From the IMG/VR virus record IMGVR_UViG_3300005096_000522, positions 1 through 34,324 of that record: a DNA stretch of 34,324 bases. One strand, given 5' to 3'. Origin of the DNA: a virus. Shown piece after piece: positions 1,414-34,324 of this stretch (position 1 is its first letter; each line of letters begins with the position of its first letter). Under the pieces are notes generated by a model, which made no database searches, was not told the DNA's origin, and was given only the letters and a program-made list of their open reading frames with translations. Both the position numbers and the translations under genes were made by a program.

Positions 1414-1553
1414 TATTAACTACCAAACCTAATATAAATTATTTTGCTTTATTATAGCTTATATTATCAAATTGCGAGATTAAACAGATAACTATCATTT
1501 AAGACAATCTGTTTCTAATTATTTTAATTGAAGATTTTTTAAGAAGCTTTACA

Positions 1554-1577
1554 TGGTGCGACCAGCGAGAGTTGAAC
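1554..1577 (-). other. tRNA 3'-end remnant: left attachment site of the prophage
   Basis: Read on the minus strand this is GTTCAACTCTCGC followed by TGGTCGCACCA. It fits the T-loop (TTCAACT), the 3' half of the T-stem (CTCGC), the 3' acceptor strand (TGGTCGC), discriminator A and CCA. The preceding bases do not supply the 5' T-stem, so this is not an intact tRNA. A 3' tRNA fragment left at the end distal to the integrase is the usual product of integration by a P4-type integrase. The orientation predicts an intact tRNA on the minus strand just right of the window, beginning with about GCGACCA. The rest of 1414-1714 holds the hsdM upstream region and one promoter; I see no gene there. Confidence 0.75.
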
Positions 1578-24187: not shown

Positions 24188-24429
24188 CTAACACTTCTAG
24201 AGAAATGGATTCTGTTTTTTTCTAACTTATCGGGCGGTATGAGGTACTTGCAATACTGTTTGCCCTCAACTGGCACGGATTCGACATCAAAACCCTGCTC
24301 TAAGAGTTCAGGTACTCGGCTTCGTAGATTGTTGGATATAAATCTCTGGCACGCTTCGGCTGCACTTAGTGGTCCTTGATTTAAAAGGTGTTGTACTATC
24401 CTATATGCTTCACTATCTCTTTTTATCAT
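24184..24429 (-). CDS. Small winged-helix DNA-binding protein (HTH_39-like)
   Basis: 81 residues. IVQHLLNQGPLSAAEACQRFISNNLRSRVPELLEQGFDVES is the compact HTH found in many phage early genes; the remainder forms the wing. RBS AAAGGAGG lies before ATG 24429. It could be a local regulator or replication accessory; no target site was identified. Confidence 0.7.
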   Translation of the reverse strand: MIKRDSEAYRIVQHLLNQGPLSAAEACQRFISNNLRSRVPELLEQGFDVESVPVEGKQYCKYLIPPDKLEKNRIHFSRSVR

Positions 24430-24551
24430 CTTACTGCCTCCTTTAGCCTTTTTCGTAGGTAGGTAATCAAAATTATCTTATCACTTGTGTTTTTTGCTGA
24501 ATTTTTCACAGCTTGAATTTGTGATAAAATCTTTTCAACCGATAAATTCAT
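24426..24551 (-). CDS. Small helical peptide gene (41 aa)
   Basis: ATG at 24549-24551 lies inside the end of the CII-like gene and the stop TGA (24426-24428) overlaps the next ATG, so it exactly fills the apparent gap. The product MNLSVEKILSQ...TYLRKRLKEAVR is amphipathic and basic at the end. Its coding sequence carries the ribosome site of the next gene, so translation would couple the two. No strong ribosome site of its own is visible. Confidence 0.5.
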   Translation of the reverse strand: MNLSVEKILSQIQAVKNSAKNTSDKIILITYLRKRLKEAVR

Positions 24552-25041
24552 CTAGTTTATTTTCTATCGCTCTTAGTTGTTTTCGCATATCCATGGCAAT
24601 TCTCTTTATCCTTTTTGCCTCTTTTTCGTCTATCACCCCGTCTTCTAGGTCAGCTACTACTTCATCAGCTAGAAGTCCTAACATTCCTTGTATCTCAAGT
24701 ACTCCTATCTGCATAGATACTTCTACGGCTTGGATAGTTTCATCTGCTTTTGGCGTTGGCTTGATAAAAAAGCCAAATTTGCTGACAAGAGCGTCTAGGA
24801 TGCTCTTTTGCTCCTCTTTGTCCATCTCGCCTAGCATGATGAGCAGTTCGTCAAGTTTTATGAATTTTGTAGTTTCGTTTGAGGAGAGTCTTTTGTAAAG
24901 CTGTATGTTTTTGGTTTTTCCGCATAGTCCTAGGACTTCCGCCATGTAGCTCACGCCATTGATATCGTTCTTTTTTCCAAATGCCGTTATATTCTCTTTG
25001 ATGATATCGTAGAGAAACGGATCCTTGTAAATGTTGTGCAT
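24535..25041 (-). CDS. Putative phage CII-family regulator, first gene of the leftward operon
   Basis: 168 residues from the ATG at 25039-25041, which has AAGGG upstream; an in-frame TTG 36 bases earlier is less likely. MHNIYKDPFLYDIIKENITAFGKKN..VSYMAEVLGLCGKTKNIQLYKRLS followed by IKLDELLIMLGEMDKEEQKSILDALVSKFGF resembles P2-type CII proteins, which combine a lambda-repressor-like HTH with a helical C-terminus. The C-terminal 60 residues are Asp/Glu/Arg-rich helix. It would be expressed from the repressible promoter at 25148-25176. Function is inferred from weak family resemblance and position. Confidence 0.5.
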   Translation of the reverse strand: MHNIYKDPFLYDIIKENITAFGKKNDINGVSYMAEVLGLCGKTKNIQLYKRLSSNETTKFIKLDELLIMLGEMDKEEQKSILDALVSKFGFFIKPTPKADETIQAVEVSMQIGVLEIQGMLGLLADEVVADLEDGVIDEKEAKRIKRIAMDMRKQLRAIENKLDEFIG

Positions 25042-25147
25042 ATCCAACCCTTTGTGATACTTCAAGACAACCTGCAAAAGGGTTGAAAAATTTGCAGGCT
25101 GACTTGAAGTATCAAAAATTTACAAATGTTTCCACTTGCATTTTGGA

Positions 25148-25176
25148 ATTATAGACAGTTTTGTCTTTTTTGTCAA
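25148..25176 (-). promoter_or_regulatory. Leftward early promoter (pL-like), consensus sigma-70
   Basis: Reading on the minus strand: TTGACA (25171-25176), a 17-bp spacer, and TATAAT (25148-25153). Both boxes match the consensus perfectly. It lies about 107 bases upstream of the CII-like ATG and can drive the whole minus-strand lytic block. Operators cover the -35 edge and the spacer, so repressor binding should block RNA polymerase. Confidence 0.9.
25153..25166. promoter_or_regulatory. Second, degenerate operator in the leftward promoter spacer
   Basis: AGACA-GTTT-TGTCT, an inverted repeat with the same half-site but a spacer one base longer. It lies in the same place, between -35 and -10, as the operator at 28209-28221 in the rightward promoter. 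Probably a weaker site. Confidence 0.55.
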
Positions 25177-25188
25177 GACATAATGTCT
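25176..25188. promoter_or_regulatory. Repressor operator at the leftward promoter
   Basis: AGACATAATGTCT, a perfect 6-1-6 palindrome touching the -35 box. It matches the operators in front of the repressor gene (28187-28199, 28209-28221, 28230-28242). This shared motif 3 kb apart is the main evidence that the CI-like repressor controls this promoter. Confidence 0.85.
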
Positions 25189-25287
25189 TTTATTCTAATA
25201 CAAAATGTTATTTTTTTGAGAAAAAAGCCTGTTTATTGTTTGTTTAATGATTATTGAAGTAAAATAAAAAGAAAAGGGGTTGCAGAT

Positions 25288-25344
25288 ATGGAGTTTGAAA
25301 ATCAGATTAAAAAGTTATCGGACAGAATAGAAATAAGTAAGTAA
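25288..25344 (+). CDS. 18-residue ORF, possibly the N-terminal remnant of a restriction-endonuclease-like gene
   Basis: MEFENQIKKLSDRIEISK, preceded by AAAAGGGG and a TAAAAT -10-like box (25260-25265), stops 1 base before the DUF4760 gene. The sequence resembles the first residues of HSDR_N_2-type proteins (typically ...QIxxLAxRIxKxK... before TEEATKNA). It may be a leftover start from an earlier cargo gene, or a leader that couples translation of the next gene. Too short to be sure. Confidence 0.35.
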   Translation: MEFENQIKKLSDRIEISK

Positions 25345-25345
25345 A

Positions 25346-25966
25346 ATGAATGATAAAATTGAATGCTCTAAGCACGTTATTAAATATATTACTAATCATA
25401 TACATCTTCAAAGTATATTTTATATGGCAGCAATGATTTCGGTTGTCATTGTTGCATCACAGTTTAGATATACTACCAAATGGAATAAAAAACAATTGAC
25501 TATAAAAATGTTATATGAACTAAAAGATAGTTTAAAACTTCATTTTGACTTCTTGCATAAAACTTTTAAATATAGAGATTTAACAGAACCTATTAGTTGT
25601 AAAACTATACATAAAGCAATGGGTGAATTTTTAGAAGATGAGGCAAGAACTGAAGAAGATTGTAAAGCAAGTGAAATAGTAAATATTTCTGGTAGAAAAT
25701 TTGTTTATCATAGCGAGGATAACGAAGATGGAAAAAATATAAAGCTTAAGCTAGGACATTTTTTAAATGATCTTGAAGCATTTGCAACAGCTGTAAATGA
25801 TGGAACTTTTGACGAGAAACAGTCTAAAAGATTGATGAGAGGCATAATCGTAAGAGCTTATAAATATTTTAAACCATATGTCATACATCTAAGAGGTGAC
25901 CACAAAGAGGTCAGCCAACTTGCGTATAAAGAGTTGTTTATGTTGGGTGAAAAATGGAGTGAATAG
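25346..25966 (+). CDS. Membrane protein with DUF4760-like cytoplasmic region (lysogenic cargo candidate)
   Basis: 206 residues: one membrane segment (about 22-40, SIFYMAAMISVVIVASQFRY), then a soluble helical domain with KWNKKQLTIKMLYEL, a CKTIHKAMGEFLEDEA stretch, LGHFLNDLEAFATAVNDGTFDEKQSKRLMRG and YKYFKPYVIHLR. This arrangement resembles DUF4760 proteins, whose function is unknown. It is transcribed away from the leftward promoter, in the middle of the immunity region, AT-rich, and ends before a strong bidirectional terminator. Such placement suggests a gene expressed in the lysogen, for example superinfection exclusion (inference). Confidence 0.6.
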   Translation: MNDKIECSKHVIKYITNHIHLQSIFYMAAMISVVIVASQFRYTTKWNKKQLTIKMLYELKDSLKLHFDFLHKTFKYRDLTEPISCKTIHKAMGEFLEDEARTEEDCKASEIVNISGRKFVYHSEDNEDGKNIKLKLGHFLNDLEAFATAVNDGTFDEKQSKRLMRGIIVRAYKYFKPYVIHLRGDHKEVSQLAYKELFMLGEKWSE

Positions 25967-26040
25967 ATTATACTTAAGCTTTAATTTAGTTAAATTAGCT
26001 TAAAATATGGAAGATGGATACATAAAAAAGGAGTTGAATG

Positions 26041-26103
26041 ATGTACTTATACACAGACAGTAAAAACTTAGGCAGGATAATTGAAGAGTGGCCATCGTGC
26101 TAA
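26041..26103 (+). CDS. Short ORF (20 aa) with strong ribosome site, just before a terminator
   Basis: MYLYTDSKNLGRIIEEWPSC, with AAGGAG 7 bases before the ATG at 26041 (an adjacent ATG lies at 26038). It begins about 70 bases after the DUF4760 stop, behind an imperfect AT-rich hairpin (about 25988-26013), and is followed at 26118 by a terminator. It could be a real micropeptide or the start of an eroded gene. The rest of 25967-26397 holds the terminator, a gene remnant and one inverted repeat. Confidence 0.35.
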   Translation: MYLYTDSKNLGRIIEEWPSC

Positions 26104-26117
26104 TCCACTAAACTATA

Positions 26118-26157
26118 AAAAACCTCAGACTGGTTAAAATCGGTCTGAGGTTTTTTT
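26118..26157. terminator. Bidirectional intrinsic terminator between DUF4760 and Abi genes
   Basis: AACCTCAGACTG and CGGTCTGAGGTT pair over 12 bp with one G-U and a short loop. A T7 run follows on the plus strand and the mirror A-run precedes it, giving a T-run on the minus strand. It can end both the rightward DUF4760 transcript and the leftward cI-Abi transcript. Confidence 0.88.
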
Positions 26158-26164
26158 GTTTTAA

Positions 26165-26257
26165 AACTCCGAAAATACAAAAGATATATACAACTACAGA
26201 GAAAAAATCATAAAAAGTTTAGAGATATTTGAAGTGGAAAAAGGATTGATAAATTAA
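26165..26257 (+). pseudogene. C-terminal remnant of a lost gene
   Basis: After an in-frame stop there are 30 codons without any start, reading NSENTKDIYNYREKIIKSLE then IFEVEKGLIN and TAA. The composition is protein-like (helical, charged, no low-complexity) although no start or ribosome site exists. This suggests the tail end of a gene whose front was replaced by the terminator-bearing segment. Chance cannot be excluded for a stretch this short. Confidence 0.35.
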
Positions 26258-26277
26258 AGTGTAAAATATAAAATGTG

Positions 26278-26305
26278 TTTTGACCAGCTTCTCAGCTGGT
26301 CAAAA
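26278..26305. repeat. Perfect 11-bp inverted repeat
   Basis: TTTTGACCAGC-TTCTCA-GCTGGTCAAAA. The hairpin is strong but neither side is followed by a T-run, so it is not a standard terminator. It is downstream of the Abi stop on the minus strand and could protect or process that transcript, or bind protein. Confidence 0.6.
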
Positions 26306-26397
26306 CTGGTAATATCAGAAATGCTAAAAAACAAATGTTCAATTACCGTACTTAGACTGTGAGTATACCATAAAATTTATAAAATAGATATAATACT

Positions 26398-27525
26398 TTA
26401 CTTACTTATTTTATAAAAGTGTATCACTGTTTTTATAATCATCATAAATGTAAGATTTATAGTTTTATTTTCTACATAATAGCTTTTGTTCCTTTGCACT
26501 CTTTTGCTTAAAAGAAGTAAATCTTTATACCTATGGTATTTTATTTTTCTACTATTGCTTATGTAAGTCAAGGCGAGCAAGGAGCCAATAAAATTGTGGA
26601 TAAATCTGTTTGTCAACAGGTCTTGAATATGAATTTTTTTGATTTTTTTATCAAAACAGTTCAAATATAAATAATCAACAACTTCTCTTGTAGGCCGCTT
26701 TAGTTGTCCTACATTAAGATTATTAATTAAACAACTATTATGAGATACTGAATTGCGAAGTTTTATAATACACGATGACAAAGATCTAATTTTTCTGTAA
26801 TTAGTGCTCCTTCTTGTATGCTTTTTGTAAAAAAAATCACATAATTTAAATAATTCTCCCAGAGTGATATCTTCAGCAATTTGCCAAATTGATTTATTTT
26901 GTAACTGTTCAGCTCTTTCAGGCTGCATAGGGTATTGTTCAAGTCCTGTATCGTGTAATGTAAATTCATTGATAATTTTGTATCCATCTTCTGGTGACAA
27001 ATCAAAATCTCTTAACAGTTGTGTTTTTAATGCATGTTCTATGCATGAACATATCTTGAGAGCTTCATTTGATATATGCATATCAATAACTGATAAATCC
27101 ACTAAATATGCAAAATCTAAATCTTTATACTTTTCATCTTTTTTTTCAAAGTTTTTTCTATATGCAGTAAGCTTATAGTAAAATGTATTGTTTGTTAAAA
27201 AATCTTTTGCCGATGTTTCATCCATTTCTATAAATCTAACACCTTTTCTCTTTAGTTTTTCCACTTGTTCCGATATACTCAACTTGGGTTTTAATATAGG
27301 GTTAAAGAGGATAAGGTATTTTCGCTCAAACACTTTCGTACTTAAACGAAAATCAAGAGCCAGCACTTCTAATGTTTTTTCTATTTCTCTTATGATATCA
27401 TTTGGATATTTACGATCCAATGCTTTTTTTTGTATTCTACTTATCTGTTCACTGCTTATTTTCTCAAAAACTTTAGAAAGATTTGGAGTATTGCTTTCTG
27501 AGATGTCTAAAAAAAGATGCTGCAC
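26398..27525 (-). CDS. Abortive infection protein, Abi_2 (AbiD/AbiF) family with HEPN RNase motif
   Basis: 375 residues. An N-terminal extension of about 80 residues precedes the Abi_2 domain: SEQVEKLKRKGVRFIEMDE, FLTNNTFYYKLTAYRKNF, FAYLVDLSVIDMHISNEAL and ICSCIEHALKTQLL. Near residue 257 it has RNSVSH (R257-x4-H262), the RX4-6H active-site motif of HEPN RNases. Family members block phage growth by killing or arresting the infected cell. The GTG start has AAAGGA 5 bases upstream. It follows the cI repressor by 65 bases on the same strand without a visible terminator, so it is probably expressed with cI in the lysogen, as rexAB is in lambda. Confidence 0.82.
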   Translation of the reverse strand: MQHLFLDISESNTPNLSKVFEKISSEQISRIQKKALDRKYPNDIIREIEKTLEVLALDFRLSTKVFERKYLILFNPILKPKLSISEQVEKLKRKGVRFIEMDETSAKDFLTNNTFYYKLTAYRKNFEKKDEKYKDLDFAYLVDLSVIDMHISNEALKICSCIEHALKTQLLRDFDLSPEDGYKIINEFTLHDTGLEQYPMQPERAEQLQNKSIWQIAEDITLGELFKLCDFFYKKHTRRSTNYRKIRSLSSCIIKLRNSVSHNSCLINNLNVGQLKRPTREVVDYLYLNCFDKKIKKIHIQDLLTNRFIHNFIGSLLALTYISNSRKIKYHRYKDLLLLSKRVQRNKSYYVENKTINLTFMMIIKTVIHFYKISK

Positions 27526-27590
27526 AAAAGTCCTTTTATTATTTTAATCTTCTTGTATTATATAACAATTTAAAATTTTAGAAAAGTCGC

Positions 27591-28169
27591 CTATACTATA
27601 CTCCTTAACACTTTACCAAATATCCTAAAAGTGCTTTGGTCGTCTAGGGATGTGGTGTAGCTTTCGTAGTCTTTGTTTGTGCTTATGATGCGAAGATGGC
27701 CCTCTTCGTTTATCTGTAGGAGTTTTACCATGAGGGTGTTTCTGAAGTTTAGCACATACAACCCCTCTCCTGCATAGTCTTTGATGGTGCTATCGAAAAC
27801 GACCCAGCTGTCAGAGAAGAGCAGAGGAATCATACTGTAACCATCCACCTGCATAGCAAAGAGAGACTTTGGCGGAGTAGTTTTAAATATAGCCAAATCC
27901 AAAATCAACTCACCTATCTTTTCCACACTATCTATCGACTCTACATTTACACCACCGCCTGCTCCAACTTTTGGAGATAGTTTTGTAACTTTAACAATAT
28001 TTTGTGCGTTTTGTCTTAAATCTTTCCATATTCTAGCTGGCACACCTCTTTGCTTCCACTTTGCAACAGTATTTTCATTTTCTCCTAGCTTTGATGCAAC
28101 CTCTCTGGGAGTCTCTACTTTTAGGACTTGGCAAAGGGCTTCTAAACTATCTTCTTTATTTATTTTCAT
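27591..28169 (-). CDS. CI-like repressor with LexA/S24 autocleavage domain
   Basis: 192 residues. The N-terminal HTH (about 8-45: LEALCQVLKVETPREVASKLGENENTVAKWKQRG) is of the Phage_CI_repr type. The peptidase S24 domain has Ser112 in DGYSMIP and Lys149 in LMVKLL; the expected RecA-stimulated cleavage bond is A70-G71 in VGAGGG. It keeps the prophage silent and is destroyed in the SOS response. ATG 28169 has GAGGGA upstream. Three copies of a 13-bp operator lie just upstream and one to two more lie at the leftward promoter 3 kb away. Confidence 0.9.
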   Translation of the reverse strand: MKINKEDSLEALCQVLKVETPREVASKLGENENTVAKWKQRGVPARIWKDLRQNAQNIVKVTKLSPKVGAGGGVNVESIDSVEKIGELILDLAIFKTTPPKSLFAMQVDGYSMIPLLFSDSWVVFDSTIKDYAGEGLYVLNFRNTLMVKLLQINEEGHLRIISTNKDYESYTTSLDDQSTFRIFGKVLRSIV

Positions 28170-28186
28170 AGTTATCCCTCAAAAAA

Positions 28187-28242
28187 AGACATTAGGTCTT
28201 GACATAAAAGACATAATGTGCTAGAATTTCGACATTAGGTCA
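28187..28242. promoter_or_regulatory. Three repressor operators between cI and the rightward genes
   Basis: Sites AGACATTAGGTCT (28187-28199), AGACATAATGTGC (28209-28221) and CGACATTAGGTCA (28230-28242), consensus AGACATWAKGTCT. Their centres are 22 and 21 bases apart, two helical turns, so neighbouring dimers could contact each other. They cover the -35 edge, spacer and start region of the rightward promoter; the nearest lies 18 bases from the cI start codon. Confidence 0.88.
28199..28227 (+). promoter_or_regulatory. Rightward early promoter (pR-like)
   Basis: TTGACA (28199-28204), 17-bp spacer, TAGAAT (28222-28227). It has the same design as the leftward promoter at 25148-25176: the two share AGACATTA(T/G)GTCTTGACA and then AGACA in the spacer. 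It would drive the gene at 28315 and beyond. Confidence 0.88.
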
Positions 28243-28268
28243 TATTTGCATTATCATAATGCAAATAT
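28242..28268. repeat. 12-bp perfect inverted repeat, possible Cro-type operator over the cI promoter
   Basis: ATATTTGCATTA-TCA-TAATGCAAATAT. It differs from the CI operator motif. On the minus strand it contains TATGAT/GATAAT, a plausible -10 for cI transcription, so a protein bound here could switch cI off. No other copy was noticed in the window. Confidence 0.65.
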
Positions 28269-28314
28269 AGTAAAAGTATATTACAAAAAGCCTTAAATAT
28301 GAAAGGAATATGTC

Positions 28315-28557
28315 TTGAAATTTAGCCAAAATGTCTCATTTTTGAAAAACATCGAGTTTGGATTGTGGGAGAGTAACAAATCTTTAGAAGATTTGTGCAG
28401 CAATTGTGACGCCAAACTCTCCAGCGTAAAGACCAGACTATACATGATAAACCTATACAAAAAACTACCAACTCCACTAGATAAAAAATTAGACAGCTAT
28501 CTAAAAGAGAACTGCACAGGATACAAAGAATGGGCAAAAGAGATGATATGTGGATGA
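28315..28557 (+). CDS. First rightward early protein (possible Cro/antirepressor analogue)
   Basis: 80 residues starting at TTG 28315 with AAGGA 7 bases upstream. The segment FGLWESNKSLEDLCSNCDAKLSSVKTRL could be a short helix-turn-helix, and the C-terminal half is basic and helical. No family is recognised with certainty. Being the first gene after the rightward promoter and divergent from cI, it occupies the place of cro. Confidence 0.5.
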   Translation: MKFSQNVSFLKNIEFGLWESNKSLEDLCSNCDAKLSSVKTRLYMINLYKKLPTPLDKKLDSYLKENCTGYKEWAKEMICG

Positions 28558-28616
28558 TATATGTATTTATCGCGGGACTTTTCATAGGGTTTATCTTACC
28601 CATAATGCTTGGGTGA
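28554..28616 (+). CDS. Tiny single-span membrane peptide (20 aa)
   Basis: MIYVFIAGLFIGFILPIMLG: almost entirely a membrane helix. ATG overlaps the previous stop as ATGA; an in-frame ATG at 28548 adds two residues. The ribosome site is weak, so expression would depend on coupling. It resembles phage micro-membrane peptides, but nothing specific can be assigned. Confidence 0.4.
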   Translation: MIYVFIAGLFIGFILPIMLG

Positions 28617-28655
28617 AAGTGATGAGTTTAATAAAGCTTTACATGTAGAGTTTTA

Positions 28656-28808
28656 TTAAGCGTATCGAGCTTAAAAGTTTTTTAATTTACCCCTCGCTTT
28701 CCACGACCAAAGCGAGGCACTTTTGAAGTGATGTCACGATGAACACATAACCCAAGCTTGGGGATGGAAGCTTGAGGAACTTTTTATACCTGCTTATAGA
28801 GTAGGCAG
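28656..28808 (+). ncRNA. Structured leader region with five consecutive hairpins
   Basis: In 153 bases: TTAAGC-N7-GCTTAA (28656-28674, followed after a few bases by T6), CCTCGCTTT-N8-AAAGCGAGG (28692-28717), CACTT-TTG-AAGTG (28718-28730), the palindrome CCCAAGCTTGGG (28751-28762), and CTGCTTA-N5-TAGGCAG (28790-28808). No gene is visible here. The region ends just before the ribosome site of the next small ORF. It might be a regulatory leader, an antitermination site or an RNA; no known family was recognised. Confidence 0.45.
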
Positions 28809-28824
28809 ATGTAAGGAGTTGATG

Positions 28825-28884
28825 ATGGATTACTGGTTTATCATATTTTTAGTGGTTATGACACTATGGTTATTTGACGACTAG
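28825..28884 (+). CDS. Tiny membrane peptide (19 aa)
   Basis: MDYWFIIFLVVMTLWLFDD, a membrane helix with acidic end. AAGGAG lies 6 bases before the ATG at 28825 (another ATG directly precedes it), a much better ribosome site than chance would give. It lies downstream of the hairpin-rich stretch and ends in the hairpin at 28885-28902. Confidence 0.5.
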   Translation: MDYWFIIFLVVMTLWLFDD

Positions 28885-28902
28885 AGGGGGTGTGTGCCCC
28901 CT
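28885..28902. terminator. GC-rich hairpin between convergent genes
   Basis: AGGGGG-TGTGTG-CCCCCT, a perfect 6-bp stem. It sits exactly between the stop of the plus-strand 19-aa ORF and the stop of the minus-strand 46-aa gene. Neither side has a T-run, so it may slow or stabilise transcripts rather than end them. Confidence 0.45.
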
Positions 28903-28906
28903 TGAC

Positions 28907-29047
28907 CTACTTTTTGGTAGCAGGTTTTTTGTTTGGCTTGCTGGGAGCTGGCTTCTTGACCTTTTGTTTAGGGCGAGTATCTTCGTTGTAGATACCTCGG
29001 GTACTATTCCCACCTGTATTGACAGTATCGATAGGCTTGTCACTCAT
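28907..29047 (-). CDS. Small basic Lys/Pro-rich protein (46 aa), second gene of a minus-strand cassette
   Basis: MSDKPIDTVNTGGNSTRG... ending KPNKKPATKK. The first half is polar and the second half strongly basic, without hydrophobic core, so probably disordered and possibly nucleic-acid- or membrane-binding. The ribosome site AAAGGAGGTGA before ATG 29045-29047 is near perfect. It follows the 168-residue membrane protein gene by 18 bases on the same strand and is opposite in direction to the surrounding early genes. Confidence 0.65.
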   Translation of the reverse strand: MSDKPIDTVNTGGNSTRGIYNEDTRPKQKVKKPAPSKPNKKPATKK

Positions 29048-29065
29048 CTAGCATCACCTCCTTTG

Positions 29066-29572
29066 TTAGTTAGATAGTATGAAAGCTAGATATATGACAT
29101 TTATGATGCTAAATATCGTAGCTATATTTGTTAAATCACTTCTTCTGTTTTGGTTTTTTGTATTGCTATCTATGGCCACTCTAGTGGAACTTAAAAAATC
29201 AAATAGAGCTTGTGATTTAGTCCATTTATTGTCTTTGTATTTTGACATTGCTTGTAAATCATTTAAACCACCTAACTGAATATCTCTAAAAAATGCCATA
29301 GCAACCAAGCAGATGATGATAGAAGATACAGCCAATACAACAAAACCCGTAAGAGATTGACTCCAAGACGAGCGGTATAGCTGGGCTATTATGCCAAGCA
29401 TCAAGAAGTTTATCCATAAGATAGTCTTTATGATTGATATTTGATTTGGCATCACCGTTCTTGTAAGGGCATCTAACACTCTGTTTTCAGATGCAAGATG
29501 AAGTTTAAGATTGTGTTCATAATCTAAAACTTCTCTGTTTTGTTTGATTTTTTTTGACTCTCTAGTATTCAT
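29066..29572 (-). CDS. Multi-span membrane protein of unknown function (cassette with own promoter)
   Basis: 168 residues: a charged N-terminal helix (1-44), membrane segments at about 46-64 and 76-95, a polar helix with FFRDIQLGGLNDLQAMSKYK and KSQALFDFLSS, and a third membrane segment at about 149-166. The layout of cytosolic helix plus paired membrane spans is reminiscent of SLATT or PycTM-type defence effectors, but no diagnostic motif is present. Ribosome site AAGGAG precedes ATG 29572. A promoter lies at 29622-29630. Being the reverse of the early operon suggests a moron expressed in the lysogen. Confidence 0.65.
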   Translation of the reverse strand: MNTRESKKIKQNREVLDYEHNLKLHLASENRVLDALTRTVMPNQISIIKTILWINFLMLGIIAQLYRSSWSQSLTGFVVLAVSSIIICLVAMAFFRDIQLGGLNDLQAMSKYKDNKWTKSQALFDFLSSTRVAIDSNTKNQNRRSDLTNIATIFSIINVIYLAFILSN

Positions 29573-29621
29573 GTTAACTCCTTAAATTTAGTTTGGAGTT
29601 GTTGTTTGTTTTAGTTGACAT

Positions 29622-29630
29622 ATTATACCA
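29622..29630 (-). promoter_or_regulatory. Extended -10 promoter of the minus-strand cassette
   Basis: On the minus strand TGGTATAAT, the extended -10 consensus, 50 bases before the ATG of the membrane protein. An 8-bp inverted repeat, GGAGTTGT (29595-29602) and ACAACTCC (29630-29637), brackets the -10 and transcription start and could be an operator. The same gap also has a plus-strand TTGACA (29615-29620), so a divergent promoter for the rightward genes is possible. Confidence 0.65.
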
Positions 29631-29683
29631 CAACTCCACAGTAAACTTTAAAGAGTAGATAAAATCAACAAAAAGGGGAACAG

Positions 29684-29773
29684 ATGAAAAACATAGTCAA
29701 GTTCTTGCTACTTCTAATAGGAGCAGTTACATACAGCAAAAAAGAGTTGGACCAAGCAGGAGTGGAGTTATGA
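29684..29773 (+). CDS. Small membrane peptide (29 aa)
   Basis: MKNIVKFLLLLIGAVTYSKK then ELDQAGVEL: one short hydrophobic helix with a polar tail. AAAAGGGG precedes the ATG. It is the first rightward gene after the minus-strand cassette. Confidence 0.5.
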   Translation: MKNIVKFLLLLIGAVTYSKKELDQAGVEL

Positions 29774-29807
29774 GAGTAGATAGTTTAAATTTTAAAAGGA
29801 GGACAAT

Positions 29808-30137
29808 ATGTCTGAAGATACAGTAGTTTTACCACCCCAAGTGGAGGCATTTGTAAATGCTTTTCAAGCACTAGGTGGAGGTGATTTATCTATACAAGCG
29901 GGAGATAATCTCTCAAAAGCCATCAAGGCGACTATGATAGAGGGTAAAAAATCAACAGTTACCATCACTCTTGGCATAAGTAGAACAAATGACGAGATGA
30001 TAACGATAGATGGAGCAGTGAAAGCAACACTTCCAACTCCAAAAATCACAGGTGCTTTCTTTGTGGATTGCCAAAACTACTTACCAAGTAGAAACAGACC
30101 AAACCAGCAGGTTTTAGATTTAAAAACAAGGAGATAA
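29808..30137 (+). CDS. Phage early protein found beside YfdQ/DUF2303 genes
   Basis: 109 residues, excellent ribosome site AAAGGAGGA. The KSTVTITLGISR...MITIDGAVKATLPTPKITGAFFVD stretch followed by a FVDCQNYLPSRNRPNQQ end recalls the small partner usually encoded upstream of DUF2303 proteins, with a beta-rich core and a dPxQ-like end. The function of the family is unknown. Only 1 base separates it from the next gene. Confidence 0.6.
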   Translation: MSEDTVVLPPQVEAFVNAFQALGGGDLSIQAGDNLSKAIKATMIEGKKSTVTITLGISRTNDEMITIDGAVKATLPTPKITGAFFVDCQNYLPSRNRPNQQVLDLKTRR

Positions 30138-30138
30138 A

Positions 30139-30897
30139 ATGTTTGAAAAATTGATAAAATTGGTACAGAGACCATCAGAGCAGCTAAATGGTAGAGTTCT
30201 AGTTCATAAGGACTATGAAATTAAAGCGGATACTAACTATAGACCACCTCTAGCTAGAAATGTGATTGCACAAAGCATACTAGATAAGTATGATTTTATA
30301 GAGTTCGTAAATGAGTACAAAGAAGAACAAACCAAACTCTTTTATAATGAAAACCAAATCAAAGCGGTATTTAACTATCCACTTGTGGATGAAGCGGACT
30401 ATGGTGACTCTTTTTGTGTTATGGGGCTTAGATATACAAATGATTTTAGTAGGTTTTCGTCAATGTTAGAGAAAAAAATGAGCCAAAAAGAGTTCATAAT
30501 GATGTTAAAAACTTTGGAGCCTTACATAGTAGGTTTTGACGGTAAAGAAATAGAAAATATGGACATAATAGAGATTGCCGAAAATCTACAGGCTACTAAA
30601 AACATAAACAGCATACAGAGAAACACGCAACAAAAGTTCACACTAGATGTGGAGATTAGCACAGGGCATAGTGAGATGACTATACCTAGATACATATCGT
30701 TTGAGTTCCCTATCTTTAAAAATGATTTGCAACTTAAGACCAGATTTGAAGTTGAGTTGTTTCTGGGTGGAAGTGATGATGGGTTTGAAGCTGTGCTTAT
30801 GTGCTACAAGCTAGAGCAACAAAAAGAGGAGGCACTAAAGGAACTAACCAAAGAGGTGCAAAACGGGCTAGATGGAGTAGATAGTTTTATGAGTTAA
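30139..30897 (+). CDS. DUF2303 (YfdQ-like) phage protein
   Basis: 252 residues. Landmarks include YRPPLARNVIAQSILDKYDFIEFVNEYK, IKAVFNYPLVDEADYGDSF and the C-terminal ISFEFPIFKNDLQLKTRFEVELFL. This matches the DUF2303 layout (E. coli prophage YfdQ, about 270 residues). The role is not established; these genes sit in early regions near recombination or anti-host functions. Translationally linked to the preceding gene. Confidence 0.75.
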   Translation: MFEKLIKLVQRPSEQLNGRVLVHKDYEIKADTNYRPPLARNVIAQSILDKYDFIEFVNEYKEEQTKLFYNENQIKAVFNYPLVDEADYGDSFCVMGLRYTNDFSRFSSMLEKKMSQKEFIMMLKTLEPYIVGFDGKEIENMDIIEIAENLQATKNINSIQRNTQQKFTLDVEISTGHSEMTIPRYISFEFPIFKNDLQLKTRFEVELFLGGSDDGFEAVLMCYKLEQQKEEALKELTKEVQNGLDGVDSFMS

Positions 30898-30906
30898 AGC
30901 ACATTT

Positions 30907-30939
30907 AACAGACCTCTAAAGCGTAGAGGTCGATTGAGT
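30907..30939 (+). repeat. Hairpin repeat, copy 1
   Basis: AACAGACCTCTA-aagcg-TAGAGGTC-GATTGAGT: an 8-bp stem with a conserved tail, 10 bases after the DUF2303 stop. The same flanks and arms recur at 31229-31260, where only the loop differs. Confidence 0.85.
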
Positions 30940-30963
30940 AGAAAACCAACAAAAAGGAAAAAT

Positions 30964-31221
30964 ATGAAAAAAGAAATTAGATTAGGTGACAAAGTAGAAG
31001 ATACAGTAACAGGTTTACGCGGTATTGTTACTGCTAGAGTGGAGTATCTGAATGGATGTGTTCAGTTCTGCGTGATTCCTAAAATAAAAGACAAAAGTGG
31101 GAAGTCTTCCGAATACATAGATGTTCAACAATTAAGAAAATTAAAAGGTGGTTTACAAATAAAAGCTCGTGCGGTGGGAGGACACAAGGCAAATACTCCA
31201 AATCCCAGCTATAAAATATAA
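30964..31221 (+). CDS. Small SH3/KOW-like phage protein
   Basis: 85 residues from ATG 30964, which has AAAAAGGA upstream; an in-frame TTG 30 bases earlier lies inside the repeat hairpin and is rejected. MKKEIRLGDKVEDTVTGLRG, then IVTARVEYLNGCVQFCVIPK, is a beta-barrel pattern common in phage early genes. The C-terminal ARAVGGHKANTPNPSY tail is also typical. Function unknown. It is bracketed by the two copies of the hairpin repeat. Confidence 0.7.
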   Translation: MKKEIRLGDKVEDTVTGLRGIVTARVEYLNGCVQFCVIPKIKDKSGKSSEYIDVQQLRKLKGGLQIKARAVGGHKANTPNPSYKI

Positions 31222-31228
31222 CCCACTG

Positions 31229-31260
31229 AACAGACCTCTACATGTAGAGGTCGATTGAGT
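31229..31260 (+). repeat. Hairpin repeat, copy 2
   Basis: AACAGACCTCTA-catg-TAGAGGTC-GATTGAGT. Here the arms extend to a perfect 20-bp palindrome. It starts 8 bases after the stop of the SH3-like gene, the same relation as copy 1 to its upstream gene. Confidence 0.85.
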
Positions 31261-31288
31261 GTGTTTACTCATGATTTTAAGTTTATCC

Positions 31289-31390
31289 TTTTTGGAAGGT
31301 GTGCATGTAGCAAAATAGATATGCAACTCTCCTTTAAACTTTTTGCAACGCAGCGCCCACCAAAGATGCCGCATGCACATCGTCCAAAGA
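31289..31390 (+). ncRNA. Structured RNA element closed by a 19-bp long-range stem
   Basis: The arm 31289-31307 (TTTTTGGAAGGTGTGCATG) pairs with 31372-31390 (CATGCACATCGTCCAAAGA) over 19 positions: 16 Watson-Crick pairs, two G-U and one mismatch. The 64-base inside holds TGCAA/TTGCA (about 31322-31346). No convincing gene lies in 31222-31408. The stem ends about 10 bases before the ribosome site of the next gene, as a leader or a small RNA would. Confidence 0.5.
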
Positions 31391-31408
31391 GGATATAAAA
31401 GGAAAAAA

Positions 31409-31633
31409 ATGCAGACAAAAAAGATGAGTTGGATAGAGACTGTGACGAGTACGGCAATAGGGTTTATCGTGTCGCTTGTGTTGGTAAACATAGTGTTGCC
31501 AGCATTTGCTTTTAATGTGAGGTTTGCACAAAGTTTAACGATAACAGCAATCTTCACGGTGGCAAGTATCATTAGAGGATATGGAGTACGCCGACTGTTT
31601 AACTATATATACCAAAAAAGGAGTGAGGGATGA
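31409..31633 (+). CDS. DUF7220-like two-span phage membrane protein
   Basis: 74 residues from ATG 31409 (AAAGGA upstream). MQTKKMSWIETVTSTAIGFIV, two membrane spans (about 11-30 and 40-57), and IFTVASIIRGYGVRRLFNYI at the end match a widespread phage protein of unknown role. The frame is open further upstream through the structured element, but that part looks unlike protein and has no ribosome site. Confidence 0.75.
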   Translation: MQTKKMSWIETVTSTAIGFIVSLVLVNIVLPAFAFNVRFAQSLTITAIFTVASIIRGYGVRRLFNYIYQKRSEG

Positions 31634-31839
31634 GAGAAGAGAGAGTTTATAGTCAGCAGAGAGTCGCGCGGATGAGTGAAGATGAGAGGAAGTGGGCTAT
31701 TGATATGGTGAAAACTTCAAATTCTCTCACTCCACAGGAGAAAGAGGAGAATTTGCGAGTATTGCAAAGAGACATAAAAGCCGAAATCCAAGCAAGGATA
31801 GTAGCAGAGTCCGCGGATATAGATAATATAGGAGCTTGA
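31630..31839 (+). CDS. Small helical early protein, unknown
   Basis: 69 residues, highly charged: MREERVYSQQRVARMSEDER..., one or two helices. ATG overlaps the previous stop as ATGA, with GGAGTGAGGG just ahead. No family recognised. Confidence 0.6.
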   Translation: MREERVYSQQRVARMSEDERKWAIDMVKTSNSLTPQEKEENLRVLQRDIKAEIQARIVAESADIDNIGA

Positions 31840-31840
31840 G

Positions 31841-32074
31841 ATGATAAGTAAAATAGAGTTACTAAGCATAATAGGTGATGAGATGAAACCATCTGTGCTT
31901 GCACTGGTGTCCAAGCTTCCTATCATACCATCAAAATTTGAGATTATAAAAGGCAGAAAGATACCCTTTTATAACAAAACAGAGATGATCCACGCTCTAA
32001 AGATGAGAAAATCAAGAGCAGGAAGCACCGCACACATAACAAAACTAGAGATGATAGAGAGGTTGGAGGGATGA
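31841..32074 (+). CDS. Small early protein, unknown
   Basis: 77 residues, basic: MISKIELLSIIGDEMKPSVL ... NKTEMIHALKMRKSRAGSTAHITKLEMIERLEG. Helical, without an evident motif; the KMRKSRAGS part could touch nucleic acid. GGAG lies 6 bases before the ATG. One base separates it from the preceding stop. Confidence 0.55.
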   Translation: MISKIELLSIIGDEMKPSVLALVSKLPIIPSKFEIIKGRKIPFYNKTEMIHALKMRKSRAGSTAHITKLEMIERLEG

Positions 32075-32277
32075 ATATAAATTTAAGAGGTGCATATAAA
32101 AATCAAAACAGAGAGTTAATCACCATAAAAAACAAAATAGCAAACACCAACGAAGTAAGTGAGATATTGGAGGATATGGAAAATATAATTGGAGATGCAC
32201 AATGGCTCAACGAACAGCTTTTGGATTTTTTAATAGAGATAAGAGATAGAAAAAAAGAGGGTGAAAAAGGTGATTGA
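32071..32277 (+). CDS. Small coiled-coil early protein, unknown
   Basis: 68 residues, mostly one acidic/basic helix: ELITIKNKIANTNEVSEILEDMENIIGDAQWLNEQLLDFL. Overlaps the preceding stop as ATGA with GGAGGG upstream. No family recognised. Confidence 0.55.
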   Translation: MNINLRGAYKNQNRELITIKNKIANTNEVSEILEDMENIIGDAQWLNEQLLDFLIEIRDRKKEGEKGD

Positions 32278-32332
32278 TGAGCTTATAGATGTTTTATGTT
32301 TGGGAGAAACAGATGAAATACCTACTAAATAA
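32270..32332 (+). CDS. Possible 20-residue peptide
   Basis: GTG start overlapping the previous gene, product (M)IDELIDVLCLGETDEIPTK. It carries the ribosome site of the following small membrane ORF, so it may serve mainly for coupling. Weakly supported. Confidence 0.3.
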   Translation: MIDELIDVLCLGETDEIPTK

Positions 32333-32402
32333 CATAGATATAGCTATAACACTACTTTTAGGATTTATCGCTGTATATATCGTACATGGGGTTATGGGAT
32401 AA
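32313..32402 (+). CDS. Small membrane peptide (29 aa)
   Basis: MKYLLNNIDIAITLLLGFIA then VYIVHGVMG: one membrane helix. GGGAG lies 6-7 bases upstream of the ATG. Similar in size and character to the peptides at 28554, 28825 and 29684. Confidence 0.5.
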   Translation: MKYLLNNIDIAITLLLGFIAVYIVHGVMG

Positions 32403-32458
32403 CAAATAAACAACTGTCTTAAAGCGATAGACTTTTGGACTGAAAGATTGGAGGAAAA

Positions 32459-32725
32459 ATGAATAAGCAAGATGTGATTGAAAAAGGCGATATCGTTTAT
32501 ATTGGAAACAGATATTTAGTTAGACAAGTTGAAAAACTGGAAGTAGTAGATGTTTTACTAGAGCCTAATAGAAAAATGTTGCTACTAAAAACAGAAAATG
32601 GAGAGCATGTTTTAACAGCATATAGTAATGTAACCAAGGATAGTAGGGCATATAGAATATATATACACAAACAAAATTTAAAAGAGCAGATAGAAAAGTT
32701 AGAAGAAGAATTGAAAAAAATATAA
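32459..32725 (+). CDS. Small beta-barrel plus coiled-coil early protein, unknown
   Basis: 88 residues. A first part VIEKGDIVYIGNRYLVRQVEKLEVVDVLLEP looks like an SH3/KOW barrel; the last 25 residues form a Lys/Glu coil. GGAGG precedes the ATG. About 57 bases of non-coding sequence separate it from the membrane peptide before. Confidence 0.55.
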   Translation: MNKQDVIEKGDIVYIGNRYLVRQVEKLEVVDVLLEPNRKMLLLKTENGEHVLTAYSNVTKDSRAYRIYIHKQNLKEQIEKLEEELKKI

Positions 32726-32786
32726 GAAGAGGAATATAATGAAAATTAAGTTATATAAAGTTTATGAAAAGGTTGGGAGTTAAAAG

Positions 32787-32963
32787 ATGAAAAAGAGCAA
32801 TATCCTCAAAAACCTTAAAGAAGTAAGTTTGAGGCTGGATGATATTATAGATTTTCTAAAGGAATATCAAGCAAAAAAACAAGAGCAGTTAAAAACAGAT
32901 GAGGACATAAAAGAGTACAGGACACTAAAAGAAGTGATACATCTGCTTGAAGAAGTAGCATGA
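32787..32963 (+). CDS. Small helical early protein (58 aa)
   Basis: MKKSNILKNLKEVSLRLDDI ... YRTLKEVIHLLEEVA: two amphipathic helices, charged. GGGAG lies 8 bases before the ATG. A 14-codon ORF (32739-32783, AGAGGA upstream) ends 3 bases before it and may be a leader peptide. No family recognised. Confidence 0.5.
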   Translation: MKKSNILKNLKEVSLRLDDIIDFLKEYQAKKQEQLKTDEDIKEYRTLKEVIHLLEEVA

Positions 32964-32994
32964 TGTTTTGATATATATAAGGGGATAAACTTAA

Positions 32995-33189
32995 ATGAAA
33001 ATGGAAGATGGATGGATAAGTAAGAAAAATCTAGCAAAGTGGTTGGGCGTGTCGGGTTCTACTGTATTGCGTATGGAAAAGAGCGGGATATTGCCTAAGG
33101 CTTGGAGACCTACCGTAGGGACAACTCTGTTTGACTTTAGTAAGTGCAAAGAGTATATAAAAAGGCACTCCACCAGTGCATCAGCTTGA
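32995..33189 (+). CDS. Putative excisionase (MerR/AlpA-type HTH)
   Basis: 64 residues: WISKKNLAKWLGVSGSTVLR then MEKSGILPKAWRPTVGTTLFD is the winged-HTH pattern of small excisionases and AlpA-like factors. AGGGG precedes the ATG. It is convergent with the integrase gene and their 3' ends overlap by 53 bases. A recombination directionality factor is expected at this position. Confidence 0.7.
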   Translation: MKMEDGWISKKNLAKWLGVSGSTVLRMEKSGILPKAWRPTVGTTLFDFSKCKEYIKRHSTSASA

Positions 33190-34324
33190 TTCGTTCGGTG
33201 ATGTACTCTGCTTTGTTATATACTCCAGCTGTTCCACCCTCTACATGTGCTAACTGTCTCTCTATGGCATCAGATATGACACCGTGGATGTAGATATTTT
33301 CATGCAAGATGGTAGAGGCTGTATGTCTAAAGCCGTGGGCAGTCTGTCTGCCTTTGTAACCAAGTCGCTCCAAGGCTCTGTTCATCGTGGCATCACTCAT
33401 GTTTTTACCTCTGTTTGTCTCAAATACATACTCTTTATCGCCATTTAACACTTTTGCTTTTTTAAGTATCTCTAAAACCTCTTTGGATAGCGGAACTAGA
33501 TGTGCTCTTCTGGTTTTCATCTTCCCAAACTCTATGGTTATCATATTTTTGGTGAAATTTATCTCGTCCCAGCGTAAAAATCTGACATTGTAGGGGCGTA
33601 AAAAAGTGTGAGCAATAAAAAACAAAGAGAGTTTTACCACAGGGGTGATGTTAGCACCTACTATATCACACAATAGTCGCTTGAGCTCTTTTGGACTTGT
33701 CGTATGTGCAAGATTTTTTACTGCTATGCGAGGAATGATGGCTTCTCTATCAACATCATTTGGGATATTATGATCCACATACCCTAGAGCCATACTGTAA
33801 CGCCAAATTCTTTTACAGAGATTGTGTGCTAATTTAACAGTATAGTTCACGCCACGACTATTTACATCCATCAAAAATTGCGCCATCTCAAAACGGGTTA
33901 TATCTCGGATGTCACTCTCTCCAAAATACCGCAGTATATCTCTATCTATAACGCCGCAATTTCTCTTATAAGTTGTAGGTGCCAAATCGCCTTTCATAAA
34001 TGTTTTAAACTCAAGAACTATATCTTTTATTTTTTTTATGTTATCATCTTTTTTAAATTTAGGATCAATACCCTCAAAGAGTTGCTTTTGTAAGTCAAAT
34101 CTTTTATCTCTCGCTTCCACTAGAGATAAAATAGGATATTTTCCTAGTGTAATCTTTTGGTATTTCCCTGTTGCAGGAGATTTGTATCTAAACTCAAAAA
34201 CTTTTGAGCCTGATTTTTTAACAGTAAGCTGAAGACCGCCCCCGTCATAGAGACAAAACTCTTTAGCAGTAGGCTTCAAACTCTTAATCTGGGCATTGCT
34301 TATAGACTTAGTATTTCTAGCCAC
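33137..34324 (-). CDS. int: P4-type tyrosine site-specific integrase (start at the window edge)
   Basis: 395 residues. The arm-binding N-terminus (NAQIKSLKPTAKEFCLYDGGGLQLTVKKSG, DUF4102 type) precedes a core-binding domain (about 100-190) and the catalytic domain: R243 in FLRPYNVRFLRW, K268 or K270 after the beta-hairpin, H330-GF-R333, H360 and nucleophile Y369 in GVYNKAEY. It integrates the phage at a tRNA 3' end, in agreement with the remnant at 1554-1577. The first visible codon is GTG at the very edge; it may be the true start, since the length is usual. Confidence 0.92.
   Translation of the reverse strand: MARNTKSISNAQIKSLKPTAKEFCLYDGGGLQLTVKKSGSKVFEFRYKSPATGKYQKITLGKYPILSLVEARDKRFDLQKQLFEGIDPKFKKDDNIKKIKDIVLEFKTFMKGDLAPTTYKRNCGVIDRDILRYFGESDIRDITRFEMAQFLMDVNSRGVNYTVKLAHNLCKRIWRYSMALGYVDHNIPNDVDREAIIPRIAVKNLAHTTSPKELKRLLCDIVGANITPVVKLSLFFIAHTFLRPYNVRFLRWDEINFTKNMITIEFGKMKTRRAHLVPLSKEVLEILKKAKVLNGDKEYVFETNRGKNMSDATMNRALERLGYKGRQTAHGFRHTASTILHENIYIHGVISDAIERQLAHVEGGTAGVYNKAEYITERIKLMHWWSAFLYTLCTY

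Follow-up and report, generated by a model that had tools for sequence, protein, structure and literature searches.

Which regulator acts at the two promoters that face outward from positions 25,148 to 28,242 of the viral DNA stretch considered here, and what is the role of the genes enclosed between them? The stretch (IMG/VR record IMGVR_UViG_3300005096_000522, positions 1 to 34,324; hereafter the window, meaning its full length of 34,324 nucleotides) carries a prophage in tRNA-Leu, spanning approximately 32.9 kb and ending just beyond the window. We consider it very probable that the region is the immunity (lysogeny control) region of this temperate tailed-phage prophage, with the repressor acting at both outward promoters and exchangeable cargo between them, most likely serving phage exclusion. 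According to this explanation, a LexA/CI-type repressor would bind AGACATnAnGTCT sites located in a pair of outward promoters separated by 3 kb. At the leftward promoter it would silence the genes for the CII-like protein, DnaB, and terminase, and probably those of the virion, and at the rightward promoter the small early genes as well as the xis side of the int arm, with a third site lying between the right promoter and a candidate promoter of the repressor's own gene. The DNA between the operator sets would be the part expressed in the lysogen, holding exchangeable accessory genes; in the window these encode a HEPN protein of the Abi_2 family and a membrane protein with DUF4760, most likely serving to exclude other phages. 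Upon RecA-stimulated self-cleavage of the repressor, both arms would be released simultaneously.

An earlier note on this DNA had described twin outward modules of one design, namely a site, TTGACA, a second site within the 17-bp spacer and the -10, with a third site on the right. Both the positions and the design were borne out, as follows.

25148..25188, minus strand: leftward module P_L/O_L, facing the CII/DnaB/terminase/structural arm
25176-25188, minus strand: O_L1, AGACATTATGTCT, overlapping the start of the -35
25171-25176, minus strand: left -35, TTGACA, followed by a 17-nt spacer
25153-25166, minus strand: O_L2, AGACAAAACTGTCT, mostly within the 17-nt spacer
25148-25153, minus strand: left -10, TATAAT, at the end of P_L/O_L
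28187..28242, plus strand: rightward module P_R/O_R, facing the xis/int arm
28187-28199, plus strand: O_R1, AGACATTAGGTCT, leading into the right -35
28199-28204, plus strand: right -35, TTGACA, followed by a 17-nt spacer
28209-28221, plus strand: O_R2, AGACATAATGT, inside the 17-nt spacer
28222-28227, plus strand: right -10, TAGAAT, with an extended -10 TG
28230-28242, plus strand: O_R3, CGACATTAGGTCA, the third right-hand site

The left module agrees with the sigma-70-type promoter consensus in 12/12 positions and is the sole match of this quality within 24400-34324. The right module (11/12) is one of two such matches in that interval, the other, at 32711 (+), being without an operator. Centres of neighbouring operator sites are spaced by approximately 21-22.5 bp, corresponding to two helical turns. 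Local alignment of the two modules in the same orientation gave a score of 31, compared with a maximum of 18 among 300 base shuffles. A genome scan for the motif, proposed in the earlier note, located the exact operator AGACATWAKGTCT at only two places in the draft genome, which comprises 2,126,391 bp in 209 contigs at 93% completeness (the window corresponds to C178:2-34325); both lie within the two modules. The motif is not common, and a dispersed regulon was rejected, as its exact form is absent elsewhere in this draft genome. With one mismatch allowed, eight forward and eight reverse occurrences were found in the draft genome, against four and four for the reversed control pattern. A site matrix, partly circular as it was made from the sites of the window and of a second phage (L013, see below), gave the three highest ranks in the window to O_L1, O_R1, and O_R3, in that order, with O_R2 at rank 5 (14.5 bits). 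Shuffled windows reach 14.7 bits on this matrix, which renders the weaker sites less certain, and O_L2, longer by one base, was outside the top 25 of the scan. Two additional matches, at 29801 (rank 4) and 28324 (rank 6), are probably not operators, because they lie in coding sequence that is kept in a relative with a different repressor and different operators (L010); they thereby serve as negative controls of the matrix scan.

The gene closest to the right module encodes the candidate regulator.

27591..28169, minus strand: CI-type repressor, 192 residues, with an N-terminal helix-turn-helix (HTH) and a C-terminal Peptidase_S24 domain (PF00717)
28275..28303, minus strand: candidate repressor promoter TTCATA-17-TATACT (9/12), upstream of O_R, reading across a palindrome and O_R toward the repressor gene

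The protein matched PF00717 (E 6.4e-15) and phrog_4 (E 3.8e-22); its HTH was read from the sequence, with no separate Pfam HTH match among those listed. Guided by LexA/CI motifs, we take the serine of GYSM, the lysine of LMVK, and an Ala-Gly in GAGGG to be the catalytic pair and the candidate cleavage site. Judged by its sequence, it combines the features of a CI/LexA S24 repressor, i.e., an HTH plus a Peptidase_S24 domain with a Ser/Lys dyad. No sequence relatives were found in the PDB, either for the repressor (E 0.001) or for the Abi_2 protein (E 0.01). The promoter TTCATA-17-TATACT, whose hexamers are retained in L010, is perhaps the repressor's own, in which case the transcript would cross O_R.

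Two natural experiments link this repressor to both modules. The closest relative of the window is L010 (IMGVR_UViG_3300026512_000040), in which aligned stretches are mostly 81-87% identical, including CII (88%), the first rightward gene encoding 80 residues (81%), and DUF4760 (83%). Its repressor retains the C-terminal part (residues 64-192, 118/129 identical, 91%), whereas the HTH (residues 22-55) is identical in 8/34 positions. The leaders are nearly identical to those of the window, on the left downstream of the -10 and on the right downstream of the place of O_R3. The operator/promoter segments differ from those of the window and agree with one another (TATTAAAAACTATTGACAATATATATA on the left, TATTAAAAACTATTGACAATCTATATA on the right), sharing the motif TATTAAAAACTATTGACAAT. 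Abi_2 is absent from L010, and another gene occupies that place. The reverse case is L013 (IMGVR_UViG_3300006892_000006), a distant phage detected via the operator-promoter string. Its repressor is 33% identical overall, with 25/34 identical positions in the HTH and 29/123 (24%) in the C-terminal part, and AGACAT operators precede CII at one end and the repressor at the other, the spacers and the enclosed cargo being different; the contig stops within the right module. Since L010 changes the HTH together with both modules and L013 shares HTH as well as AGACAT operators, the compared sequences indicate that the operators follow the HTH and not the phage. This supports reading both modules as operators of the bracketed repressor.

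Extension of this analysis to other phages was based on the first gene of the leftward operon.

24535..25041, minus strand: CII-like regulator (Phage_CP76, PF06892)

The ATG at 25041, matching the starts of homologues, was adopted as its start; the listed open reading frame (ORF) begins at 25077. Using the CII-like protein and its profile, we gathered 25 CII loci including the window (16 from 398 genomes, the own genome included, seven further loci, plus L010 and L013), and scanned up to 9 kb past each CII promoter with the module of that promoter. At nine loci (the window, L010, L013, L038, L039, L042, L045, L074, and L078) an outward partner was the top match, well above the next. As a control, the two hexamers were kept and the remainder of the module was shuffled 40 times for all 25 loci; at the nine clear loci, the outward scores of 23-38 exceeded every shuffle of the own locus (maximum 22 over the nine). 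Furthermore, partners were permuted among the ten loci with window-like repressor orientation, comprising eight of the nine clear ones plus L036 and L040, with the right region taken from the repressor start. The own-pair scores summed to 259, whereas 200,000 permutations averaged 145 and never exceeded 244. Brackets of this kind, having different operators and cargo, recur in a minority of the CII loci.

Individual loci showed further arrangements. The second match of L042 is the same palindrome in reverse reading, and the module of L045 reaches only 9/12 of the promoter consensus. In L078, the CII-side module occurs in tandem as a perfect 56-base copy approximately 147 bases apart (3508 and 3655, CII-leftward orientation). 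In L050, similar promoters (TATAATTCTCCTATACC) occur twice near a CII-like gene, some 1 kb from each other and facing the same way (3359 and 4427, CII-leftward orientation), which is not an outward pair. Outside the 25, L086 (IMGVR_UViG_3300000502_000004) was detected by its DnaB (65%); it has a different repressor in opposite orientation, and the 21-mer TAAGTGAGTATATCTTACAAT is present in three exact copies. One of these is at the lytic promoter, and the other two lie beside an Abi_2 gene, on its int-facing side. The L086 Abi_2 is 57% identical to that of the window, under another repressor and operator. Two loci detected via the protein encoded at 30139-30897, likewise additional to the 25, gave no left partner (L083) or a plausible partner ranking second, at 18 versus 19, that was not counted (L084). 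A lambda-like position of the repressor, next to the promoter on the CII or replication side, is seen in L086, L045, and L084. When named genomes were scanned with the CII profile, 84 stretches fitted a pattern and none of them was confirmed; the operator-promoter pattern gave no match there.

The cargo of the window consists of two genes with their terminator-like hairpins.

26398..27525, minus strand: Abi_2 (PF07751) protein, 375 residues, with the HEPN-type motif RNSVSH
26277..26306, minus strand: terminator-like hairpin 3' of Abi_2
25346..25966, plus strand: DUF4760 (PF15956) protein, 206 residues, in its own direction, cargo also in L010 and L078
26117..26156, plus strand: terminator-like hairpin 3' of DUF4760

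That an Abi_2/HEPN gene takes the place of rex, as the earlier note had claimed, is supported by its position, by 64.1 bits on PF07751 against a curated cut-off of 25.6, and by RNSVSH, which fits the HEPN RxxxxH-type motif. Abi_2 follows the repressor on the same strand after 65 bp and may be part of its transcript. DUF4760 is outside the repressor's operon, because it faces the repressor and has its own terminator-like hairpin. It has one N-terminal hydrophobic segment, judged by eye, and a search for it in the phage collection found none. Directly ahead of DUF4760, an 18-codon frame (25288-25348, plus strand) follows a G-rich, ribosome-site-like stretch and ends a single base short of the DUF4760 ATG; in L010 a comparable G-rich stretch runs directly into DUF4760.

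From bracket to bracket the cargo varies, as judged from searches of ORFs of at least 85 residues. L013 has BRCT and HSDR_N proteins, L045 a Beta_protein, L038 an IrrE-type peptidase and a SHOCT protein, L078 another DUF4760, L074 Sel1 repeats, and the weak locus L040 a BsaWI-type endonuclease with an N6/N4 methylase. The other cargo proteins gave no confident family. Two of them, at L010:6631-7089 (minus strand) and L042:4853-5314 (plus strand), are of similar length and share the pattern EKEQ.MR.KE.PY.R followed by hydrophobic segments; neither has a Pfam match, and their brackets have different repressors.

Several observations weigh against an immunity region with exclusion cargo, or against its generality. 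Sixteen of the 25 CII loci lack a clear pair: two (L047, L075) have no promoter match; three are borderline, L040 scoring 15 (reached by 1/40 shuffles), L080 scoring 16 (2/40), and L079 scoring 18 outward against a null maximum of 17 (0/40) with 17 inward; and the other 11 are chance-like, including L041 with 786 bases scannable, some loci being cut by contig ends. In the permutation analysis, the own partner was strictly best at six of the ten loci, tied at two (L013, L040), and second at two (L036, L039), the rival partner of L039 being L074, the repressor of which is near-identical. This analysis was not blind, as loci were picked after the pair scan and several repressor starts were set by eye. 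Nor are all loci independent, considering that the window and L010 are related phages, the window and L013 share one HTH type, and the repressors of L039 and L074 are near-identical. L010, L013, and L086 are metagenomic contigs. With respect to the cargo, PADLOC matched none of the five window proteins submitted (DUF4760, Abi_2, the repressor, the 29066-29572 protein, and CII). An abiF antitoxin RNA beside Abi_2 was sought and not found, Rfam giving nothing at gathering score in the window and RF03085 nothing at E values up to 10 in 25100-28350; lacking an adjacent Rfam abiF RNA, Abi_2 may work in a mode different from that of characterised AbiF.

Could the modules be alike merely through a recent duplication of a promoter segment, with no single repressor acting at both ends? 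Approximately 45-55 bp align at high identity between them and the alignment ends there, as a duplication would leave it. In L010, however, both segments carry a different common motif while the flanks stay, and recent duplication as the sole explanation was rejected on account of this joint difference; moreover, locus-specific matched pairs recur at other loci, and in L013, whose HTH is of the same type, the operators recur with spacers that differ. We regard this scenario as highly improbable. The operators might also be real and belong to the CII-like protein or to the small protein of the first rightward gene instead of the S24 repressor, given that each of these genes adjoins a module and either product may bind DNA. 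This assignment likewise has very little in its favour once L010 is considered: CII and the small protein are little altered there, whereas both modules are different and the repressor HTH differs in step.

A more serious objection concerns the enclosed genes, which might form no functional unit, the stretch simply tolerating insertions and Abi_2 and DUF4760 having no exclusion role. Many cargo proteins are without a confident family, neither cargo gene of the window matched PADLOC (run on window proteins only), DUF4760 has its own strand and its own terminator, and Sel1, SHOCT, and IrrE-type proteins are also among the Pfam-matched cargo. On the other hand, the Pfam-matched cargo leans toward conflict genes, i.e., Abi_2, HsdR-N, Beta_protein, and the BsaWI-type restriction-modification pair of the weak L040. 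The same Abi_2 type is found within two differently regulated brackets, those of the window and of L086, and in Streptococcus phage Javan427 the start of an Abi_2 homologue overlaps the end of the annotated repressor gene, placing it directly behind the repressor. Taken together, we judge an absence of any exclusion role to be unlikely, and a repressor-controlled immunity region with exclusion-type cargo remains our preferred explanation.

Two features of the right arm bear on a possible antagonist of the repressor.

28242..28268, no strand: 27-bp palindrome ATATTTGCATTAT-C-ATAATGCAAATAT in the right leader, just downstream of P_R
28315..28557, plus strand: first gene of the rightward operon, 80 residues, five-helix model, a small-regulator (Cro-like) candidate

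Small proteins related to one another are encoded as the first rightward gene in the window, L010, L042, and L083, and possibly in L038, L036, and L040 (17-19% identical). Whether the protein has a Cro fold is undecided on the basis of its models: the best had a pLDDT (predicted local distance difference test) of 79.6 and four others 55-60, Foldseek returned nothing at E 0.001, and VIA-align scored 434 repressor/Cro at Z of about 4 and unrelated enzymes as high as 5.7. The palindrome lies close to where the repressor transcript would be expected to begin and is retained in L010 with one base change; a similar one, TTTACATTCCCATAATGTAAA, occupies the corresponding position in the right leader of L038, a distant phage whose operators are different. 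Because the 80-residue gene and the palindrome persist in L010 despite its different operators, the comparison suggests that this protein is a lysis-promoting regulator not using the CI operators. In lambda, CI and Cro use common operators and so must change together. We tentatively raise the possibility, rather doubtful at present, that the antagonist, be it the 80-residue protein or CII, is uncoupled from the repressor's operators and acts through the retained palindrome instead. If so, the immunity type would change by swapping three short pieces, the HTH segment and two operator segments, without any change of antagonist or leaders, and the window compared with L010 would be a picture of one such exchange, in which DUF4760, located between the pieces, remained.

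The remainder of the prophage is arranged around this region.

1550..1577, no strand: left attachment (att) repeat, 28 bp
Equivalent of 34472-34499, just outside the window: att partner, overlapping the 3' end of tRNA-Leu(gag)
25055..25114, minus strand: 23-pair stem-loop in the CII leader, downstream of P_L and ahead of the ribosome site

All genes taken as real from 25041 down to 2144 are leftward, comprising the CII-like, HTH_39, DnaB, terminase, and virion genes, the last being named from their sequence. Between 28315 and 33189 small, mostly rightward genes are found, and the integrase (33137-34324, minus strand) comes last. An hsdM-like ORF, labelled from sequence, occupies 1-1413 at the left edge of the window. 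On the opposite strand within the rightward early arm, 29066-29572 (minus strand) encodes a phrog_19900 protein with several hydrophobic segments, 90% identical in L010, which is possibly a further gene expressed in the lysogen. The earlier note had let the whole lytic arm depend on one promoter, which is unproven, as P_L may or may not reach the tail genes. Besides the left module, one minus-strand promoter match of at least 11/12 is found in the leftward arm, inside the 5724-9314 gene. A terminator-like hairpin with six T lies directly 3' of TerL (19175-19152, minus strand); it is absent from L010, where a different sequence follows TerL.

The CII leader of the window folds far better than its shuffles (z -7.6). 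Among 15 leaders, folds were strong in the window, L010, L036, and L078 (z -6.6 to -7.9) and weaker in L013, L037-L042, and L077 (-2.0 to -3.8), L050 (-1.8), L046 (-0.9), and L049 (0.0). Compared with L013, five pairs are altered on both sides (reached by 1/500 shuffles) and four are unformed, in a comparison of three sequences only with a structure derived from the window. Across the window, L010, L013, L036, and L078 the sequence of the stem-loop varies while pairing is largely kept. It is no intrinsic terminator, because a U-run is lacking, and is a candidate for a processing, antitermination (in the manner of the put signal of HK022), or translation-control element.

How does this region relate to known systems? 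The earlier note had compared it with the lambda plan oL-rexBA-cI-oR. In this respect, the enclosure of a repressor and cargo by matched outward promoters stood, whereas the gene order did not, the repressor being turned round. In lambda, cI adjoins the replication-arm promoter; the repressor of the window adjoins the xis/int-arm promoter and reads toward the replication/structural arm. Common to both are a CI-type repressor and an exclusion-type gene between outward promoters with the same operators, as well as several sites per promoter (for the lambda operators, PRM, and Cro, see the accessible portion of PMC11077077). The cargo differs, being unrelated to rex and including an extra gene in the opposite direction; Pfam and PHROGs assign it to Abi_2 and DUF4760, with no RexA/RexB homologues among it. 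Furthermore, a CII-like gene, not cro, is first on the lytic arm of the window. No cro sharing the operators was found, and the sole small-regulator candidate noticed is located on the other arm and unchanged with the operators.

Among phage records, the window CII matched only Nitratiruptor phage NrS-1 (AB746912; 31%), which is identical to L036 over 15,001 bases. NrS-1 has a CI-like gene, two hypothetical genes, a CII-like gene, and a primase in the same relative order, with other cargo and replication genes and no clear matched pair in our scans of L036. A word search of the main text of the 2022 Nitratiruptor paper, the portion of it considered here, gave neither "operator" nor "promoter" and "repressor" twice. 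The Abi_2/AbiF family protein of a Clostridioides difficile prophage resembles that of the window in its prophage location and HEPN-type motif and differs in its associated antitoxin RNA with abiF motifs (RF03085), none of which was found in the window (PMC12373285, as far as its available text goes).

That defence genes lie behind prophage repressors is established by lambda rex, BstA, and RexAB-type systems. In BTP1 and further prophages, the BstA locus behind cI holds an abortive-infection gene, and the cI-n region of lambdoid phages had earlier been identified as a hotspot of mosaic diversity (PMC8585504, in the sections accessible). The window shares with it an abortive-infection gene directly behind the prophage repressor; BstA is unlike Abi_2, and matched operators or co-replacement of operators and HTH are not the subject of those sections. 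In the accessible descriptions of RexAB-type systems of Gordonia phage CarolAnn and of Pseudomonas putida prophage P1, defence genes are likewise co-transcribed with or adjoining the repressor, with RexAB in place of Abi_2 and in other hosts. Our literature search on prophages of this bacterial order found no account of operators. The natural pairs of the window with L010 and with L013, along with L086, offer a view of how the immunity type changes when two distant operator sets must change together. Because many cargo proteins are without a confident family, the brackets also represent a practical hunting ground for unknown exclusion genes. The arrangement described here would add prophages of this bacterial order to those known to carry a lambda-style immunity bracket around defence-type cargo.

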